Origin: Planctomycetota bacterium | Lineage (GTDB): Bacteria > Planctomycetota > Phycisphaerae > Phycisphaerales > SM1A02 | NCBI GenBank assembly: GCA_003671055.1 | Contig: QWPV01000018.1 | Coordinates: forward strand, 1-42,017 | DNA: 42,017 bases | Reading direction: 5' to 3' | Shown: one piece after another, positions 1 to 33,705 of the stretch | How positions within the stretch are numbered: the first letter of the stretch is position 1 | Layout of the letters: each line of letters opens with the position of its first letter | Made by a program: the position numbers and the translations under genes | The notes under the pieces: generated by a model | What the model was told of the DNA's origin: nothing | Database searches by the model: none | Seen by the model: only the letters and a program-made list of their open reading frames with translations

Positions 1-1958
1 CCGATCACTGCGTTTTGCGTGGTCATCGTATGCACGCCGTCATTGTTGATGACGACAGTTGCGCCGAGATACATCTTGGAACCATCGTCGCTCTCGAGTG
101 AGAACGTCCATGCGCCTGACACGGGGACGGTGAGCCATCCTTCAAACTTCGCGGCGACATGATCACTCATGCCGCTCGTTGCGAAGTTGCCTGTCGTCGC
201 GGGATAGTTGAGCGCGCTTGCGGCGTTGGCCACCGTTGCCGACATCCCTGAGAAGTTGGGAAGCGCAGTGAGTGTGCCGATCGTGTAGTAGCGCGCATCA
301 AGTTGCGACACGACACCGACTGGATTCTCTGGCGCACGCAGCGCGGTGATCGTCATCGACACTGTCGCTGTCGTGCTCTGTCCGTTGAGTCCCGCAACCA
401 TGTAGGAGAAGGAATCTGCGCCGCTGAAGTTTGGATTCGCGTGCGTGTACATAAGTTCATCGCGACCTTCCGGCCCGGTCGCAACCGAACGCACGATGCT
501 CGCGCCTTGTGCAGAAGTTGCGTTGAAACTCGCGATCGTGAGCGCGTCGCAATTTGAAGCGGAGTCGTTCGCGAGGACATCGATCGAAATCCCAGTGGCT
601 GCAAACCCCGCCTTCGAATCATTGAGCGCTGCTGGAGACAGATTCGTTCCCGAGTAGTTACAGGCGAGCGACGCGATGTAATTCTCCATCGTCGCAACGT
701 TGCCTGGATGCAATTCGAGTCGAATGTTCGAGAGTCCACCGCCGCACAAGTGGCAGTACGACATGATCGTTCCTGCCTTCGCAACGGCGACGCTGCAGTC
801 AGGGGGACTCGAACCACAACCATCAAGCACAGGGTTGTACGCATGTGTGTGGGGCGCGCCGAGGTTGTGACCCAACTCATGCGCGACGACGAAAATGTCC
901 CAGTTCTGCTGATGATTGTTCAGTAACGGGTACGGAAAGTATCCCGTGAGATTCGAATTCACCGCGAAGCCGTTTGCGTTGCAAAGTCCGTTGAGGTACG
1001 CGATACCACCACCAAGCGCGCGCCCGGAGAGAAACTGCGCGCAATCACGCTGCACGTAGCCCATCGATGCAAGCCATGTCGTGCGGAATTCATAGAGTTG
1101 ACCTGCGGCAGTTGTCGCCATCCACGGATCTTGCGGATCAACCCACAGTCGCACGAACGAACTTGAGATGCGTGCATTGAGATCGCGAGAGTAGATGGAA
1201 TTGAGCGCAGCAACGATGGTCTGCACATAACCACCTGCAGCGGCAGTATTGCCACCAAACATCTGCAAGAACTCGTGGTCCGTTTCAAATGCGAGACGGA
1301 GTTCTCGGCATGGCGCACTCGCGACGCCACCTTCAGCGAATGCTGCACTCGGCGGAACTTCTGGATCAATCGTGTCGCACACCCATTCCGACCAGCTGAT
1401 CGCGCCTTCAGGCAGCGCGTCGAGTTCGTAGGAGAGCGTGGGAAGCCCTGCGCCGTACGGTCCACTTGAGATGATCCATGTACGACCTTGCGTTTCAACA
1501 ACGCCATAGGTGCCTGCAGCGCTTGATGCAAGAAATGCGAAACTCTCCGCATCGTCCTTCACTCGACCAGCGAGCACGAGCGCTTGTGGAATGTCGATGA
1601 CTCGTTCCCCGTGCGCATCTGCGGCGACAACTTGCGAATCACCGTGCGCGATGTCAATGAGTTTCAGTTCGAGCGTTGCGGATGACACTGCACCGAGTGG
1701 AAACTTCTCGAGCGACACGCTGCCAGTTTGCACGCGTGATTTCAGTTGCGCGATATCGATCGAAATCGCCGCAGCAGTTCGACGAAGCGACTTCGGAAGT
1801 TGATCAGTGAGTTTCGCGGAGCGCGCAACAATCTCGCGTGAAGGTGCGATGACAGATTGCGGCAGCCCACTGTGAGCGTTAGCGCAGACGGTCAGCGCAA
1901 GAAGCGATGTGGCGAGTCGAAAAAGCATGTGGGACGATTCAGGCGTTGTGCGAACACC
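1..1958 (-). CDS. Secreted M12B (reprolysin-like) zinc metalloprotease, partial at 3' end
   Basis: About 652 codons are present and the frame runs off the left edge without a stop. The zinc site HELGHNLGAPHTH lies near residue 359 and is followed about 35 residues later by a Met-turn, TIMSYC. Together they mark the metzincin/M12B peptidase fold, which cuts proteins outside the cell. An N-terminal hydrophobic stretch (CFFRLATSLLALTVCANA) is a signal peptide. After the catalytic domain comes a tandem-type beta domain around residues 440-537 (IDVLANDS ... NFSGADSFSYMV, like Big_9/cadherin-like modules). A PA14-like domain (KFEGWLTVPVSGAWTFSLES) follows and is cut by the window edge. The start is set by an in-frame TGA just upstream of GTG 1956-1958, because the nearby ATG at 1927-1929 is in another frame that soon stops. 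Substrate unknown; the PA14 region suggests binding to carbohydrate or cell surface. Confidence 0.88.
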
Positions 1959-6770: not shown

Positions 6771-8518
6771 CTGCGACCGAATCGCCGCTCAAGATCGCGC
6801 AGCGAAATTTTCAAACTTGTCGGTCGACCGTGCGGGCAATTCGTGCTTCGATCAAGGTCTTCGCGCAATGCAAGCAACGCGTGCAGTTCGCCGTCACTTA
6901 AGCGATCCCCTGCTTTCACCGCCGCTTTGCATGCCATCATGTCGACGATTTCATGCAGTGATGACTCAAGAGTGAGCGCGCCGCCGTGTTCGAGCGCCTT
7001 ACCGAGAAGCGATCGCGCAAACGCGACTGCATCGACGCCGCGAGAGGAGAAGAGCGATGGCACTGCGTCGATAGCGAGCGTGCGTGCGCCGAAAGGTCGC
7101 ATCGCAAGCCCGATACGTGCACAAAGCGGCGCAATGCCTTGCGCGGCATCCATCTCAGCCACCGAACATTCGACGACTTCAGGCACGAGGAGTTGTTGGC
7201 TCTCAAGATCACCATCCGCGAGACGCGCGAAGATCATCTCGAACATGTAGCGCTCGTGAAGCGCATGCTGATCGACGATGACGATGCCGTCTTCGCTCTC
7301 GGTGACGATGTAGTTCTCGTGGAACTGCGCGAGTTTCGTTCGAGGCAGTTCAACCGTCGCGACGGCCGAGTCGGCGGCACTCTCGAGTGCGTTCGAATGC
7401 GCGAGCGCGGCGAGTTCAGAAAAGTTCGAGGAGATGCCTGCGCCGAACAATCGCGGCGACGTGTCGAAGCTAGATGGGGCGCTCGTCGACTCTGCCTTCG
7501 GTAGTTCAAAGTACGGCACGAGATTCGCCGCGCGCAGCGTTCGCTCAATCGCGCGACGCACCGTTTGATGGATCGCTTGCGGGGAACGAAATCGCACTTC
7601 CGTTTTCGCGGGGTGCACATTCACATCGACTTCGCGAGGATCAACTTCGATGAAAAGCGCCACCGACGGCGAGCGCGCAGGATCGATGAGCCCGCGGTAC
7701 GCCTCCTTCACCGCGTGAAGCACAAGTCGGTCCATGATCGGGCGGCCGTTGAGATGAATGCGCACTGCCTTCGCAGTCGGACGCGCAATCGCGGGTTTTC
7801 CCGCGAATCCATGCACAACGAGGCGCCCTGCTTCAGGCACGCTCATTTCAAACTCCAGCAATTCCGGTTCAAGTTCTTTGCCGAGGACATCGAGCATGCG
7901 ACGCTTCGGTTCATCCGTGGACGAGAGCGCGAGCAGCACGCGATTGTTGGAACGCAGCGTGAACGCCACCGTCGGATGACCCACAGCGATCGACTCCACA
8001 CACTCTGTAATGCGCGCCGTCTCCGCAGCGTCCGCGCGCAGAAACTTGCGTCGCGCTGGCACATTGAAAAACAGCGACTTCACTTCGACGCAGGTACCCA
8101 CACGCATCGCCACTGGCCGCACGCTTCCCACAACGCCACCTTCGACGCCGAGTTCTGAACCTTCTTGTGTGTGCTTCGTCCGCGAGCGAAGCGTGAAGCG
8201 CGAGACGGACGCAATCGATGCAATGGCTTCGCCGCGAAACCCAAGTGTTGCGATTGATTCGAGATCTTCGGTCGATCCAATCTTGCTCGTCGCATGCGCG
8301 GCAATTGCGAGAAGCAGTTCGTCGCTGGGAATCCCGCCACCGTCATCGGTAATGCGAATGAGTTCGGTGCCGCCGCTTTCAATGTCGATTTCAATGGACG
8401 TCGCGCCTGCATCGAGCGCGTTTTCGACGAGTTCCTTCACCACACTTGCCGGTCGTTCCACCACTTCGCCAGCGGCGATTTGGTTCACGAGATGTGGAGT
8501 GAGTTGGCGAATCGGCAT
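6767..8518 (-). CDS. mutL: DNA mismatch repair protein MutL
   Basis: 583 aa, normal length. MutL couples mismatch recognition by MutS to strand incision. The GHKL ATPase motifs are intact: the N-terminal block (LVNQIAAGEVVERPASVVKE, LVENALDAGAT), DDGGGI, and TLGFRGEAIASIASVSRF. The MutL transducer domain follows to about residue 330. The C-terminal dimerisation domain has the metal-dependent endonuclease motif DQHALHERYMFE near residue 414 (DQHA-x2-E-x4-E), with ACKAAVKAG and CPHGRP further on. This is therefore a nicking MutL of the type found in bacteria without MutH. It lies 15 nt after the nadE stop and is probably cotranscribed with it. Confidence 0.97.
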   Translation of the reverse strand: MPIRQLTPHLVNQIAAGEVVERPASVVKELVENALDAGATSIEIDIESGGTELIRITDDGGGIPSDELLLAIAAHATSKIGSTEDLESIATLGFRGEAIASIASVSRFTLRSRTKHTQEGSELGVEGGVVGSVRPVAMRVGTCVEVKSLFFNVPARRKFLRADAAETARITECVESIAVGHPTVAFTLRSNNRVLLALSSTDEPKRRMLDVLGKELEPELLEFEMSVPEAGRLVVHGFAGKPAIARPTAKAVRIHLNGRPIMDRLVLHAVKEAYRGLIDPARSPSVALFIEVDPREVDVNVHPAKTEVRFRSPQAIHQTVRRAIERTLRAANLVPYFELPKAESTSAPSSFDTSPRLFGAGISSNFSELAALAHSNALESAADSAVATVELPRTKLAQFHENYIVTESEDGIVIVDQHALHERYMFEMIFARLADGDLESQQLLVPEVVECSVAEMDAAQGIAPLCARIGLAMRPFGARTLAIDAVPSLFSSRGVDAVAFARSLLGKALEHGGALTLESSLHEIVDMMACKAAVKAGDRLSDGELHALLALREDLDRSTNCPHGRPTSLKISLRDLERRFGRS

Positions 8519-29900: not shown

Positions 29901-31595
29901 TTAGATCGCCAACAGCGTCTTCAATGTCTCGTCGATGATCGAGATGTACTTCGCGGCGGCTTGGTACTGACGCTGGAACATGAGCAGGTTGATGGATTCT
30001 TCGTCGATCGACACGCCGCTGAGTGCTTGCGCTTGACCATCGAGTCCTTCACGCACAACGCGCGCTGTTTCGGCTTTCGTGTTCGATGCATCGGTACGCA
30101 CCGCGAGTGCGGTGGTGGCTGACTGCCAGTAGCCGCGCAGCGTGCGGCTACCGAGTTCAGCGATCGACACATCTTGCAACGCTGCAATTGCGAGCGCGGT
30201 GCCGTTGGATCCATCGATATGGTTGGAACCAGCGGCGAGCAACTGTGGATTACCGAGTATCGCTTCGTTCACTTCAATCGACGCAGCATCGGATCCACCG
30301 AAGAGCGCGTTGATGCCAAGCGACGCGAGTGCGCCTGAGGAATCGTTCGAGAAGTGCATCGTGTATCCGCTGCCCGCGTCCATCTGGAGGCGACCATCGG
30401 TGGTGACTGTCGCGCTTGCTGTTCCCGCGGGTACCGCAGCGTTGATCGCGGCTGCGAGTTCGGTGAGTGTCATCGTCTGCGGATCGACCGCGATGAGTAC
30501 CGTCGTACGCAGACCAGACTGATTGTCACGCACACTCAGTTCGAAGGAACCGTTCTTGATCGCAAAGGGAATCTCCGCCGCATCCGCGCCAAGGTTGGCG
30601 TTGGGATCCGCGACCGATTGCATACCGACCACGCTCGTCCAACCGATGCGGCCCTGTCCTTGCGAATGCACGCGGTTCACTTGATACGCGAGCTGACCCG
30701 CGAGGTTGTCGAGTTCCGCAATCGCTGGCGCAACCGTCTCTGTGCGTTGACGGAAAAGTGCGCCGAGTTGACCTTCTTCTGGAGCGAGAAACGTTCCGTC
30801 CGCGCGCACGCGCAGCGACAAATCTAGCGTTCCGCCACTCGCATCCGCGCGAAGTTCGAGGCCGCGCGATCCACCTGCGAGCACGATGGGAATGGAACCA
30901 ACCAAGATGTCGACGGAGCCGTTGGCTTGTTCGACTTGATGGCAGTCAATGAACTCCGAGAGTTCGTCGACGAGTTGATCGCGTCGATCGCGCAACGAGT
31001 TCGCGCTGCTCCCCGAGCCCTGTTCGATGTTCACGATCTGCGCGTTTAGTCCCGCGATCTGATCGAGCAATCCGTTCGCCTGATCCACCGTCGCATCGAG
31101 TGCGCGATCAATTTCTTCGCGCACCACGACGTGCTCATTACGCAATTGACGAATGGAGGTCGCGAGCCCCGATGCCTGTTGAATGACGACGGTGCGCACC
31201 GCTTCGTCGTTGGGGTTGTTGGAGAGTTCGCTGAAACTGTTGAAGAACGCGCCGAGGCGGCTCGAGAGATCTTGATCGGTGAGTTCGTTGCGAATGGTCT
31301 CGATCGAGTTGAGGAAACGCTGATCGATTGCTGCAGAGTTTTCTTGGCTGATCGCAGAGCGCAGACGAGCCTGCAACGCGCTGTCGACCGCGCGAGAAAT
31401 GGACGTGACGCTGACACCCGTACCGACAAAGCCCGCGCGTCCGATGTACTCAGGTCGCGCTGGCGAAATGCGCGCGATTTGCCGGTGGTATCCAGGTGTC
31501 GATGCATTCGCGAGGTTGTTACCTGCGATCTGCAGCGCCGCCTGACTCACTTGAATCGCGGAGTGACCGATGTTGAGAGCGCCATTGATACTCAT
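29901..31595 (-). CDS. flgK: Flagellar hook-associated protein 1 (FlgK)
   Basis: 564 aa from ATG 31595, which has AAGGA 7 nt upstream; the frame is open to 31928 but that part overlaps flgN. FlgK joins the flagellar hook to the filament. The N-terminus (ALNIGHSAIQVSQAALQIAG, NNLANASTPGYHRQ) and C-terminus (GVSIDEESINLLMFQRQYQA, AAKYISIIDETLKTLLAI) are the conserved rod/hook coiled-coil ends of the axial family. The central part is variable, as usual. It is the last gene of the flgI-flgJ-flgN-flgK cluster. flgL, normally next, is absent here because hppD lies convergently behind it. Confidence 0.93.
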   Translation of the reverse strand: MSINGALNIGHSAIQVSQAALQIAGNNLANASTPGYHRQIARISPARPEYIGRAGFVGTGVSVTSISRAVDSALQARLRSAISQENSAAIDQRFLNSIETIRNELTDQDLSSRLGAFFNSFSELSNNPNDEAVRTVVIQQASGLATSIRQLRNEHVVVREEIDRALDATVDQANGLLDQIAGLNAQIVNIEQGSGSSANSLRDRRDQLVDELSEFIDCHQVEQANGSVDILVGSIPIVLAGGSRGLELRADASGGTLDLSLRVRADGTFLAPEEGQLGALFRQRTETVAPAIAELDNLAGQLAYQVNRVHSQGQGRIGWTSVVGMQSVADPNANLGADAAEIPFAIKNGSFELSVRDNQSGLRTTVLIAVDPQTMTLTELAAAINAAVPAGTASATVTTDGRLQMDAGSGYTMHFSNDSSGALASLGINALFGGSDAASIEVNEAILGNPQLLAAGSNHIDGSNGTALAIAALQDVSIAELGSRTLRGYWQSATTALAVRTDASNTKAETARVVREGLDGQAQALSGVSIDEESINLLMFQRQYQAAAKYISIIDETLKTLLAI

Positions 31596-31626: not shown

Positions 31627-32154
31627 TCAACTGCGAAGATCGATGGTGGAGGCAACCGTCGCACCGAGCGCAACGCGGCCATGCCGCCCGTAGACGCCTG
31701 TTTGCGCGAGCGCTGAACGAACTGTCTGGATGATGCCAGCCATGTGCTGTGCGAGTCGCTCCGCTGCAGCGCGCAGCACTGAGCCTTCGTGTCGCGTCTC
31801 TTCGATGCGCTGCTTGAGCAGCGCGCGAAGTCCTTCGAGTCGCCCGCGCGACGATTCTTCAAGGCGCGCTGCGATCTCGAGAATGCTTGCGCCCTTTGCG
31901 AGCCCGAGCAACGCCGTGAGTTCCACACTCAGCGCAGTTCGACGCGTATCGAGTTCGAAGACTTCCGCGAGCACGCGCTGCTCTGCATTCGCAAGACTGC
32001 CGTAGCGCTCAAGATCTGCTTGACGCAGCGCGTCTTTGCGTTGCGCGAGTTGCTGTTGCACCTCGCCATAGAGTTCGAATTGGCGAGCGAGCACATCGCC
32101 GAGTTGTTGCGCGAGCACTTCTGGAACACGCTTTGAAACGAGAGAAGTACTCAT
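31627..32154 (-). CDS. flgN: FlgN-type flagellar export chaperone
   Basis: 175 aa, almost entirely helical (VLAQQLGDVLARQFELYGEV, QQQLAQRKDALRQADLERYG). Long amphipathic helices with ELDTRRTALSVELTALLGL match the FlgN family, the cytoplasmic chaperones that keep FlgK and FlgL unfolded before secretion. Sequence conservation in this family is low, so the position directly before flgK is strong support. Its ATGA overlaps the flgJ stop, and flgK begins 31 nt after its own stop. Confidence 0.83.
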   Translation of the reverse strand: MSTSLVSKRVPEVLAQQLGDVLARQFELYGEVQQQLAQRKDALRQADLERYGSLANAEQRVLAEVFELDTRRTALSVELTALLGLAKGASILEIAARLEESSRGRLEGLRALLKQRIEETRHEGSVLRAAAERLAQHMAGIIQTVRSALAQTGVYGRHGRVALGATVASTIDLRS

Positions 32155-32534
32155 CCCTTCACCTCTGTGCTCGGCTGTGGCGGGGCGCTCATCTGACGAT
32201 TAAATGCCTTGGAAAGCAGCGATTTCTGAACTGCGCCCACAAGGTCGAAGTTTCCACTGCGCGCGATGCGATCGGAAAACTCACCGTCGAGCATTGGGCG
32301 GAATGTCTTCTCCGCGTTACTTGCAGCGAAGGGCTTGTTGAGCGTGGAACTCGATCGCATTTGCTCAAGGATCGGCTTGATGAACGCATCGGAAACCAAG
32401 CGCACTGCCGCTTCAAACGCGAGCGCTTCAGGCTTCCCCTCACGCGCATCCTTTGCCAGACGCGCGGTGGGCGCAGTCATCGCAAGGTGTCGTGGCTGAG
32501 CGCCCATAGATTGGAGTGGAGTACTGCCGGTCAT
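32151..32534 (-). CDS. flgJ: FlgJ N-terminal-type rod-binding protein
   Basis: 127 aa. The core EALAFEAAVRLVSDAFIKPI, LEQMRSSS and KTFRPMLDGEFSDRIARSGN matches the rod-binding domain of FlgJ, which caps or scaffolds rod assembly in the periplasm. The C-terminal muramidase domain of enterobacterial FlgJ is absent, so another enzyme must open the peptidoglycan. ATGA overlaps on both sides tie it to flgI and flgN. No signal peptide is visible, consistent with export by the flagellar apparatus. Confidence 0.85.
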   Translation of the reverse strand: MTGSTPLQSMGAQPRHLAMTAPTARLAKDAREGKPEALAFEAAVRLVSDAFIKPILEQMRSSSTLNKPFAASNAEKTFRPMLDGEFSDRIARSGNFDLVGAVQKSLLSKAFNRQMSAPPQPSTEVKG

Positions 32535-33655
32535 TGCTCGATGATCTCCGCCTTCATCGCGCCCTGCGTCTTCAGACTGCGAAGGATCGCAACCTGCGTG
32601 GTGAACGGCACATCAAGTTCGATGAGCGCGTCAAGCAGTGAACGAAGCTTCATGCTGTTGCGTCCGGCTTCGCTTGTCGCGATGCCCGCCCATGCGATGG
32701 TGTCCGCGATGGGTTCATCCACGGAAGGCTGCGGTTCTGGGCTAATCGTGGTGATGCGCAAGGTTCCCGCGGTCACTGCCGCAGGACGAAACTCCACTCG
32801 ATCGTCGACGGTAATCACTTCGTTCGCGCGATCGATCACGACCCGCGCAGGTGTTCGAACAAGATCCCCAGGAACGGTGAAGGTCATGAGTCGTGCGATG
32901 AATGCGTTCGCGTCAACAGTCGCGCTCTGCGGGATTCGCACATGAATCGCGCCTTGATCGATGACGCGCGCGCAATCGGAGTAACCAGAGAGCGAGAGTT
33001 CATCGTTGATGAGATCCGAAAGACTCGCAGCCGTCGCGTATCCCGCGTACTGCGTGCCAATGAGCAACGTGACTGCGTCGCCTTCGATGGGATTCTGCAG
33101 AACATCGCGCACCATTTGCGCACCGCCGCGAACAACACCGACGCGAGGGTTGGCTGGATCAACTTCAATCTGTCCGCTCGCGACTGCGTACGGAAGCCAT
33201 GCGATTCCTGCAGGCGGCTCAATGGGAAGTTTCAGTGGACTCGCGTGAAGGAGTCCGCGTGAGAGGCTGGTTGCCGTCCCCACCGCGCTGATGCGCACGT
33301 CGAATCGATCACCGCTGCGAGCACCTGTTGTAGGGATGTCCACGGTGACCGTGACGAGCGCAACCGACTTGACCTTCGAAAGGCTCTTGGGGTCGGAGCG
33401 AATGTTCAGCTCCTTCGCCAACAGTCCCGCGAGACTTTGTGCGGTGCCCGAGGCATCCTTCATCGAGTCACCCGTGTCCTCAAGACCGGTGATGAGCCCG
33501 ATGCCGGAAAACTGGTTTGCTTCGAGACCTCTCAGTCGGCAGTACTCCTGCAGTTCGCCGGCGACGGCCATACGTGCAGAAACTGCGCCTACGAGAAGCG
33601 CAAAGAGAGTGAGGAAGGCAAGATTCGCAGTACGAAGTGAGAGCAATCCGCTCAT
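32531..33655 (-). CDS. flgI: Flagellar P-ring protein FlgI
   Basis: 374 aa from ATG 33655, preceded by AGGAGG 8 nt upstream; the open frame continues to 34231 but overlaps the divergent glycosyltransferase gene. The signal peptide is LAFLTLFALLVGAVSARMAVA. FlgI hallmarks are CRLRGLEANQFSGIGLITGL, EDTGDS, TAQSLAGLLAKELNI, VALVTVTVDIP and GDRFDVRISAVGTATSLSRG. It forms the periplasmic ring around the rod. A P-ring shows that this cell has a Gram-negative-type envelope with peptidoglycan. It is the first gene of the flagellar operon behind a sigma-54 promoter. The L-ring gene flgH is not in the window. Confidence 0.95.
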   Translation of the reverse strand: MSGLLSLRTANLAFLTLFALLVGAVSARMAVAGELQEYCRLRGLEANQFSGIGLITGLEDTGDSMKDASGTAQSLAGLLAKELNIRSDPKSLSKVKSVALVTVTVDIPTTGARSGDRFDVRISAVGTATSLSRGLLHASPLKLPIEPPAGIAWLPYAVASGQIEVDPANPRVGVVRGGAQMVRDVLQNPIEGDAVTLLIGTQYAGYATAASLSDLINDELSLSGYSDCARVIDQGAIHVRIPQSATVDANAFIARLMTFTVPGDLVRTPARVVIDRANEVITVDDRVEFRPAAVTAGTLRITTISPEPQPSVDEPIADTIAWAGIATSEAGRNSMKLRSLLDALIELDVPFTTQVAILRSLKTQGAMKAEIIEQ

Positions 33656-33689
33656 TGATAGGACCTCCTGTCCATGGGAGCCATTCCTA

Positions 33690-33705
33690 TGCAAGTGAAG
33701 TGCCA
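33690..33705 (-). promoter_or_regulatory. Sigma-54 (RpoN) promoter of the flgI operon
   Basis: On the minus strand TGGCACTTCACTTGCA fits the -24/-12 consensus TGGCACG-N4-TTGCA, with GG and GC exactly ten bases apart. Only the G of TGGCACG differs. Transcription would start near 33680, leaving a leader of about 25 nt with the AGGAGG site before the flgI ATG at 33655. The spacing and the flagellar target make this a strong call. Confidence 0.82.

Follow-up and report, generated by a model that had tools for sequence, protein, structure and literature searches.

What controls the expression of flgI, the gene of the flagellar P-ring protein, and of the genes behind it in a planctomycete of the order Phycisphaerales? 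The question is raised by a stretch of 42,017 nucleotides, hereafter the window, from a Planctomycetota bacterium (GTDB lineage Phycisphaerae; Phycisphaerales; SM1A02; assembly GCA_003671055.1, contig QWPV01000018.1). On the minus strand of the window, the genes flgI, flgJ, flgN and flgK follow a sigma-54-like site and a short hairpin element at the flgI ribosome site. Comparisons within the source genome and with 151 genomes of the source family suggest that this operon is quite probably controlled twice, by sigma-54 at transcription and by CsrA at translation. The promoter before flgI is very probably genuine, and the leader element is probably a hairpin at the ribosome site that would bind CsrA.

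The probable sigma-54 site upstream of flgI

The site, TGGCACTTCACTTGCA, is located at positions 33690–33705 of the minus strand, with its GG at 33704/33703 and its GC at 33692/33691. The gap between them is ten bases, as was claimed in the first-pass annotation, which proposed a near-consensus sigma-54 promoter ahead of the flgI operon. The flgI ATG is at 33655, 34 bases from the site. When the C of the GC is taken as -12, transcription is predicted to start near 33679 (33678–33681; 33680 in the first-pass annotation), which would give a 5' untranslated region of about 24 nt. The upstream neighbour of flgI is transcribed divergently and thus gives no read-through into flgI, as judged with a home-made gene caller that is biased toward ribosome sites.

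The flgI site was the only match in the window to TGGCACG-N4-TTGCW at up to one mismatch. At up to three mismatches, 102 matches were found in the window, compared to a shuffle mean of 93.3, i.e., background. In the whole genome, TGGCAC-N5-TTGCW at up to one mismatch was found 108 times and the reversed pattern 112 times, while exact sites numbered four against about 3.4 expected by arithmetic. Motif abundance was thus rejected as promoter evidence. Given that a count at the level of chance is uninformative, the case rests on position and conservation.

Three of the four exact sites face flagellar genes, which are flgI, fliD (77 bases, contig C96) and flgE (90 bases, contig C24). The fourth is within a phosphoesterase gene (C81). 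With 25 flagellar gene starts and an assumed 110 nt for each, the chance of finding three of four exact sites at flagellar starts is 4.5e-10. Moreover, a site with one mismatch (C15:31940-31955) was found 33 bases upstream of a flgL-like gene with the Pfam flagellin N and C domains, and another (C57:8519-8534; L049, minus strand) 313 bases ahead of flgF in a flgF-flgG-flgA-flgH cluster. The latter site is also about 65 bases ahead of a short open reading frame (ORF) that was read by eye and is absent from the gene calls.

In about 214 kb chosen for flagellar genes, 13 sites scored at least 13.5. Six of them fit a flagellar account (flgI, flgE, fliD, flgL, the flgF cluster and a site inside flgL described below), and six others (C11:9095, C24:2274, C24:57143, C24:73651, C57:2888 and C81:11121) could not be read as flagellar. 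No site of this score was found in the same sequences before flgB, fliF, fliC or rpoN. The thirteenth site, with a score of 14.9 (C24:19059-19074; L044, plus strand), falls between flgB and flgC, 16 nt before flgC. For the FliA consensus, the one pattern tried before the flagellins gave a single match on C38 and none at fliC.

The site is conserved in the family. With weights that were taken from the published consensus and not fitted, the best site within 220 nt scored at least 9 in 45 of 50 family flgI homologues (23 of 25 genera) and at least 12 in 35 of them (19 of 25 genera). The controls reaching 9 were 3 of 50 reverse complements, 1 of 50 reversed sequences and 17 of 529 other windows. 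The homologues were taken from 79 genomes with a match in the order of their scores, plus one weaker homologue, excluding partial and other weak ones; the scan missed the site of genome G132, which is at -299. Among 50 flgI loci from other families of the wider phylum, 2 reached 12 when 320 nt were scanned; this set comprised the 30 best-scoring and 20 hand-picked loci from 164 genomes with a match. In many of these other-family loci, flgI seems to follow flgH directly when read by eye. The promoter may have arrived with the separate flgI operon in the source family.

The first-pass annotation also predicted RpoN control of the P-ring and hook-junction genes and named rpoN and a flagellar enhancer-binding regulator as genes to look for. 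Both were found. The rpoN gene (C24:35867-37390) encodes all of the AID, CBD and DBD domains and matches TIGR02395 above its cut-off. Two clear sigma-54 activators were identified at 225–235 bits, both of which are response regulators with a GAFTGA motif. The gene of one (C24:17062-18591), together with that of an adjacent histidine kinase, directly precedes flgB-flgC-fliE-fliF; the other is on contig C85. Along with the similar sites at other flagellar genes and the conservation in the family, these genes support the predicted RpoN control at the level of sequence. Four more activator matches were weak (20–32 bits); they probably represent AAA+ proteins of other kinds, since each of the 14 control genomes gave matches too. 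In addition, a FliA-type sigma factor above cut-off is encoded on C38. Given two clear activators, the sigma-54 regulon of the source genome is possibly small.

RpoN was found in 136 and FlgI in 79 of the 151 family genomes, and in 95 and 52, respectively, of the 98 genomes that are at least 90% complete with at most 5% contamination. The proposal that RpoN is kept for flagella only was rejected for the family: RpoN was retained in genomes without a FlgI match and thus has another role in those genomes.

The flgI leader and the CsrA and FliW genes

Between the promoter and flgI is the element GGACAGGAGGTCC (33661–33673, minus strand), a predicted CsrA site in which a GGAC/GUCC stem presents an AGGAG loop over the ribosome site. 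A strong ribosome site had been noted in the first-pass annotation, and the AGGAGG at flgI agrees with that; overlooked, however, was that this ribosome site is an unusual conserved element. CsrA is described as binding GGA motifs, often in hairpin loops and over the ribosome site, in the available part of a C. jejuni study (PMC4894983).

In an alignment with three congeners, conservation of the flgI leader equalled that of the promoter. The 13-mer GGAC[AGGAG]GTCC was exact in 34 of the 50 family flgI leaders, representing 16 genera, and GGACAGGAGGTCC is single copy in the source genome. Family-wide, the 13-mer occurred 83 times in 64 of the 151 genomes, compared to 9 times for the reversed control, and 42 of the 83 copies precede flgI. 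In 33 of the 34 leaders with an exact copy, it starts 11–37 nt past the promoter and always at or after the predicted +2; the one other leader has no scored site. Thus, it lies within the predicted transcript each time.

The isolated 13-mer hairpin folds at -3.6 kcal/mol. GGA-loop hairpins of at least four pairs were found in 41 of the 50 family flgI leaders, compared to 21% of shuffles, which for the flgI, fliW and csrA-2 leaders alike preserve base counts only. At other gene starts of the source genome, such hairpins were found in 15 of 145 (45 nt). Stem variants among the flgI leaders were few, and in two of them (G059 and G026) pairing was kept despite the change. Among 146 called genes of six contigs or stretches, AGGAGG was found in the 22 nt before two, flgI and flgE. 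The flgE leader, the sole such companion of flgI, carries ACAGGAGGT at its ribosome site (L045:10439-10455, on C24).

Of the 41 copies of the 13-mer that are not before flgI, 21 were assigned and 20 were not. It was found at the ribosome site of csrA-2 in 9 genomes of 5 genera (8 by BLAST and 1 by reading) and in the fliW leader of 5 genomes (G032, G002, G004, G021 and G012). Copies were also observed before smc-like genes in three genomes (L134, L135 and L178), before one unknown ORF in three (L181, L183 and L184) and before a flgA-like gene in one, all of which were labelled by reading.

At least 148 of the 151 family genomes contain csrA. The source genome has two csrA genes, one of which is found with fliW between flgL and fliC. 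In its csrA-2 leader the element reads GGGC[AGGAG]GTCC with a G.U pair (L219, about 1665–1690, minus strand; C36). Four pairs were kept in 11 of 20 csrA-2 leaders, compared to 9.7% of shuffles, and CAGGAGG was present in 19 of the 20. The fliW leaders are rich in hairpins. The 26 fliW leaders contained 33 GGA-loop hairpins of at least five pairs, where 6.0 were expected; at least one was found in 22 leaders and at least two in 9. That of the source genome is CCGGC[AGGAT]GCCGG (L091, about 7808–7850, minus strand). One fliW hairpin was followed in seven genomes chosen for their shared GGAGT loop. Pairing holds in 94.6% of its cells, and both partners vary in 6 of its 8 pairs; 0 of 500 shuffles came up to these values. 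Its further pair types were not above shuffles (90 of 500). An Rfam search with a few fliW leaders gave two matches to snoRNA families, both below gathering scores and neither credible (best E 0.14).

The internal flgL site and the operon

A second sigma-54-like site is found inside the coding sequence of flgL. A TGGCAT-N5-TTGCA-like site was present in 19 of the 20 genomes covering this position, all except G007, with scores of 11.8–16.9. Its distance to the end of the flgL match is 268–271 nt, two of the sites being placed by arithmetic. In the source genome it is at C15:30197-30182 (minus strand), which corresponds to L091:8182-8197. Rows were dropped when they stopped short of this position (L262, L267, L272 and L163), gave no hit (L129 and L173) or were repeats (L280-L284). 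Of 104 flgL codon columns, four have third-base conservation of at least 0.9, and three of these four fall in the site. At one wobble position, T was found in 18 of 20 sequences while the residue takes eight identities. Mere protein conservation was rejected as an explanation by this control, and the conservation of wobble bases points to a constraint on the DNA. The site is thus a possible promoter for fliW-csrA-fliC. Widespread intragenic sigma-54 binding is reported for E. coli in the available part of PMC4591121; a promoter within coding sequence across many genera would be an uncommon case.

The operon itself begins with flgI (32531–33655; Pfam PF02119, E 1.9e-50), whose nearest named relatives are from three metagenome genomes with 85–87% identity, one labelled Phycisphaerales and two Planctomycetia. 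It is followed on the minus strand by genes for a flgJ-like rod-binding protein (32151–32534; Pfam PF10135, E 3.1e-06, no NCBIfam match), a flgN-like chaperone (31627–32154; Pfam PF05130, E 4e-12) and the hook-filament junction protein flgK (29901–31589; TIGR02492 above cut-off). The start of flgK at 31589 was deduced from the domain match, as Pfam FlgK_D1 (E 3.7e-52) was found on a longer frame.

The order flgI-flgJ-flgN-flgK-flgL-fliW-csrA-fliC was found in 5 of 5 examples, with flgK and flgL separated by about 1.8 kb in one of them (L283). In the source genome this cluster is divided between contigs C11 and C15. For 65 of the 73 flgI genomes considered, six with weak FlgI having been excluded, csrA-1 was among the matches listed; in 57 of the 65 it shares contig and strand with flgI, which it follows at 4.8–9.0 kb, and in 8 it is on another contig. 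These observations may reflect a family-wide sigma-54/CsrA flagellar checkpoint, in which a sigma-54 operon of this gene order, split in two in the source genus, has a CsrA hairpin at its first ribosome site, a fliW leader rich in CsrA hairpins and an internal flgL promoter separately firing fliW-csrA-fliC. So general a scheme is about as likely as not.

Competing explanations and known systems

In the mechanism that we infer, sigma-54 RNA polymerase would bind at 33705–33690 and form an open complex through the action of a flagellar activator. The likeliest candidate is the response regulator encoded at C24:17062-18591 beside the histidine kinase and flgB. Transcription would start near 33679 and cover flgI-flgJ-flgN-flgK, and the leader of about 24 nt would be almost wholly occupied by the GGA-loop hairpin over the ribosome site. 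CsrA would bind this leader and repress flgI translation until FliW removes it. Given a sigma-54 start and a CsrA hairpin, the operon would be gated at transcription and at translation. In the family-wide scheme, if true, a late product of the operon, CsrA, would feed back on its first gene, flgI.

Several observations weigh against this mechanism. The stem of GGACAGGAGGTCC has just four pairs, and the next outward pair is avoided, being Watson-Crick in 3 of 34 leaders compared to 8.8 expected. The 43-nt flgI leader was no more stable than its shuffles (z 0.26). Nine of the 50 family flgI leaders and 9 of the 20 csrA-2 leaders were without a four-pair hairpin, and 4 of the remaining 41 flgI leaders look like chance. 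Some GGA hairpin was also found in 23 of 50 other-family flgI upstreams (wider, 130 nt), so that discrimination comes only from the exact element. In the available part of the C. jejuni study, moreover, FlgI levels were not substantially changed by csrA deletion (PMC4894983). The short stem, the leader stability and the copies before the smc-like genes and the unknown ORF would all suit a real sigma-54 promoter followed by an especially strong ribosome site, or by a DNA dyad that a transcription factor recognises, instead of a CsrA hairpin. However, the arms of GGACAGGAGGTCC exceed the needs of a ribosome site, and the 13-mer is within the predicted transcript in every leader with a scored site. 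Stems also vary with pairing kept at flgI and take G.U forms before csrA-2, copies precede csrA-2 and fliW, and the fliW leaders have GGA-loop hairpins whose stems, as far as the one followed in seven genomes shows, appear to covary. A mere ribosome site or DNA dyad is thus unlikely. For a CsrA hairpin, a short stem that the ribosome can open would fit the weak flgI fold.

A coincidental -24/-12 match, with transcription of flgI starting from a different promoter, is very improbable. The chance-level motif count and the FliA-type sigma factor would fit such a coincidence, as would the search of the five promoter regions for a common inverted repeat (enhancer dyad), which found none and to that extent also speaks against the proposed mechanism; against coincidence stand the conserved and flagellar placement of the site, the presence of RpoN and its activators and the divergent upstream neighbour. 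A promoter that depends on sigma-54 but is driven by the C85 activator or serves a non-flagellar programme would be in line with the second GAFTGA protein and with the retention of RpoN in genomes without FlgI. That possibility is quite doubtful, as the C24 activator and its kinase are directly before the flgB-fliE-fliF genes and both of the remaining exact sites at promoter positions precede flagellar genes as well.

Hook and ring genes are driven by sigma-54 and a response-regulator activator in Caulobacter (FlbD), Pseudomonas and Vibrio (class III). Different from the FlbD-type systems, the C24 activator is below every NCBIfam cut-off (FlbD, 353.5 of 750 bits; FlgR, 304.9 of 750; AtoC, 470.5 of 714). 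In the hag-FliW-CsrA circuit of Bacillus subtilis, the target is the flagellin mRNA. As far as the available description of that circuit goes, the family resembles it in having fliW and csrA beside flagellin; here, however, sites were found at flgI, csrA-2 and fliW, and flagellin leaders were not closely tested.

In the available part of a 2025 sigma-54 survey, Planctomycetia were among the classes with enriched motility (basal-body) genes, the same passage names the P-ring COG, csrA was enriched for Planctomycetia, and Studholme and Dixon (2004) are cited for Pirellula; that part names Phycisphaerae once, for chaperones, and does not name flgI (PMC12316311). Our results extend the sigma-54 flagellar hierarchy to Phycisphaerales with footprint evidence. 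A search of the open-licence literature gave no paper on a CsrA-FliW circuit in Planctomycetota, for which the leaders described here provide a short list of candidate RNA sites. Thus, sigma-54 promoters of this kind were already known, and what appears to be new is that this one is combined with a fixed leader hairpin and with a possible promoter inside flgL.

The nearest precedent is C. jejuni. According to the available part of PMC4894983, its flgI is RpoN-dependent, the flgI leader is more than 170-fold enriched with CsrA and has GGA motifs near the ribosome site, FliW antagonises CsrA, and FlgI is lower without fliW. The affinity of CsrA for flgI is low there, with a Kd above 350 nM, and the main CsrA target is the flagellin mRNA (PMC4894983). 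Similar to C. jejuni, the family studied here thus combines a flgI gene that is predicted to depend on RpoN with GGA motifs near its ribosome site and with CsrA and FliW genes. Different from C. jejuni, as far as that part of the study goes, the family keeps one exact hairpin at flgI in many genera, and copies of it also stand ahead of csrA-2 and fliW.
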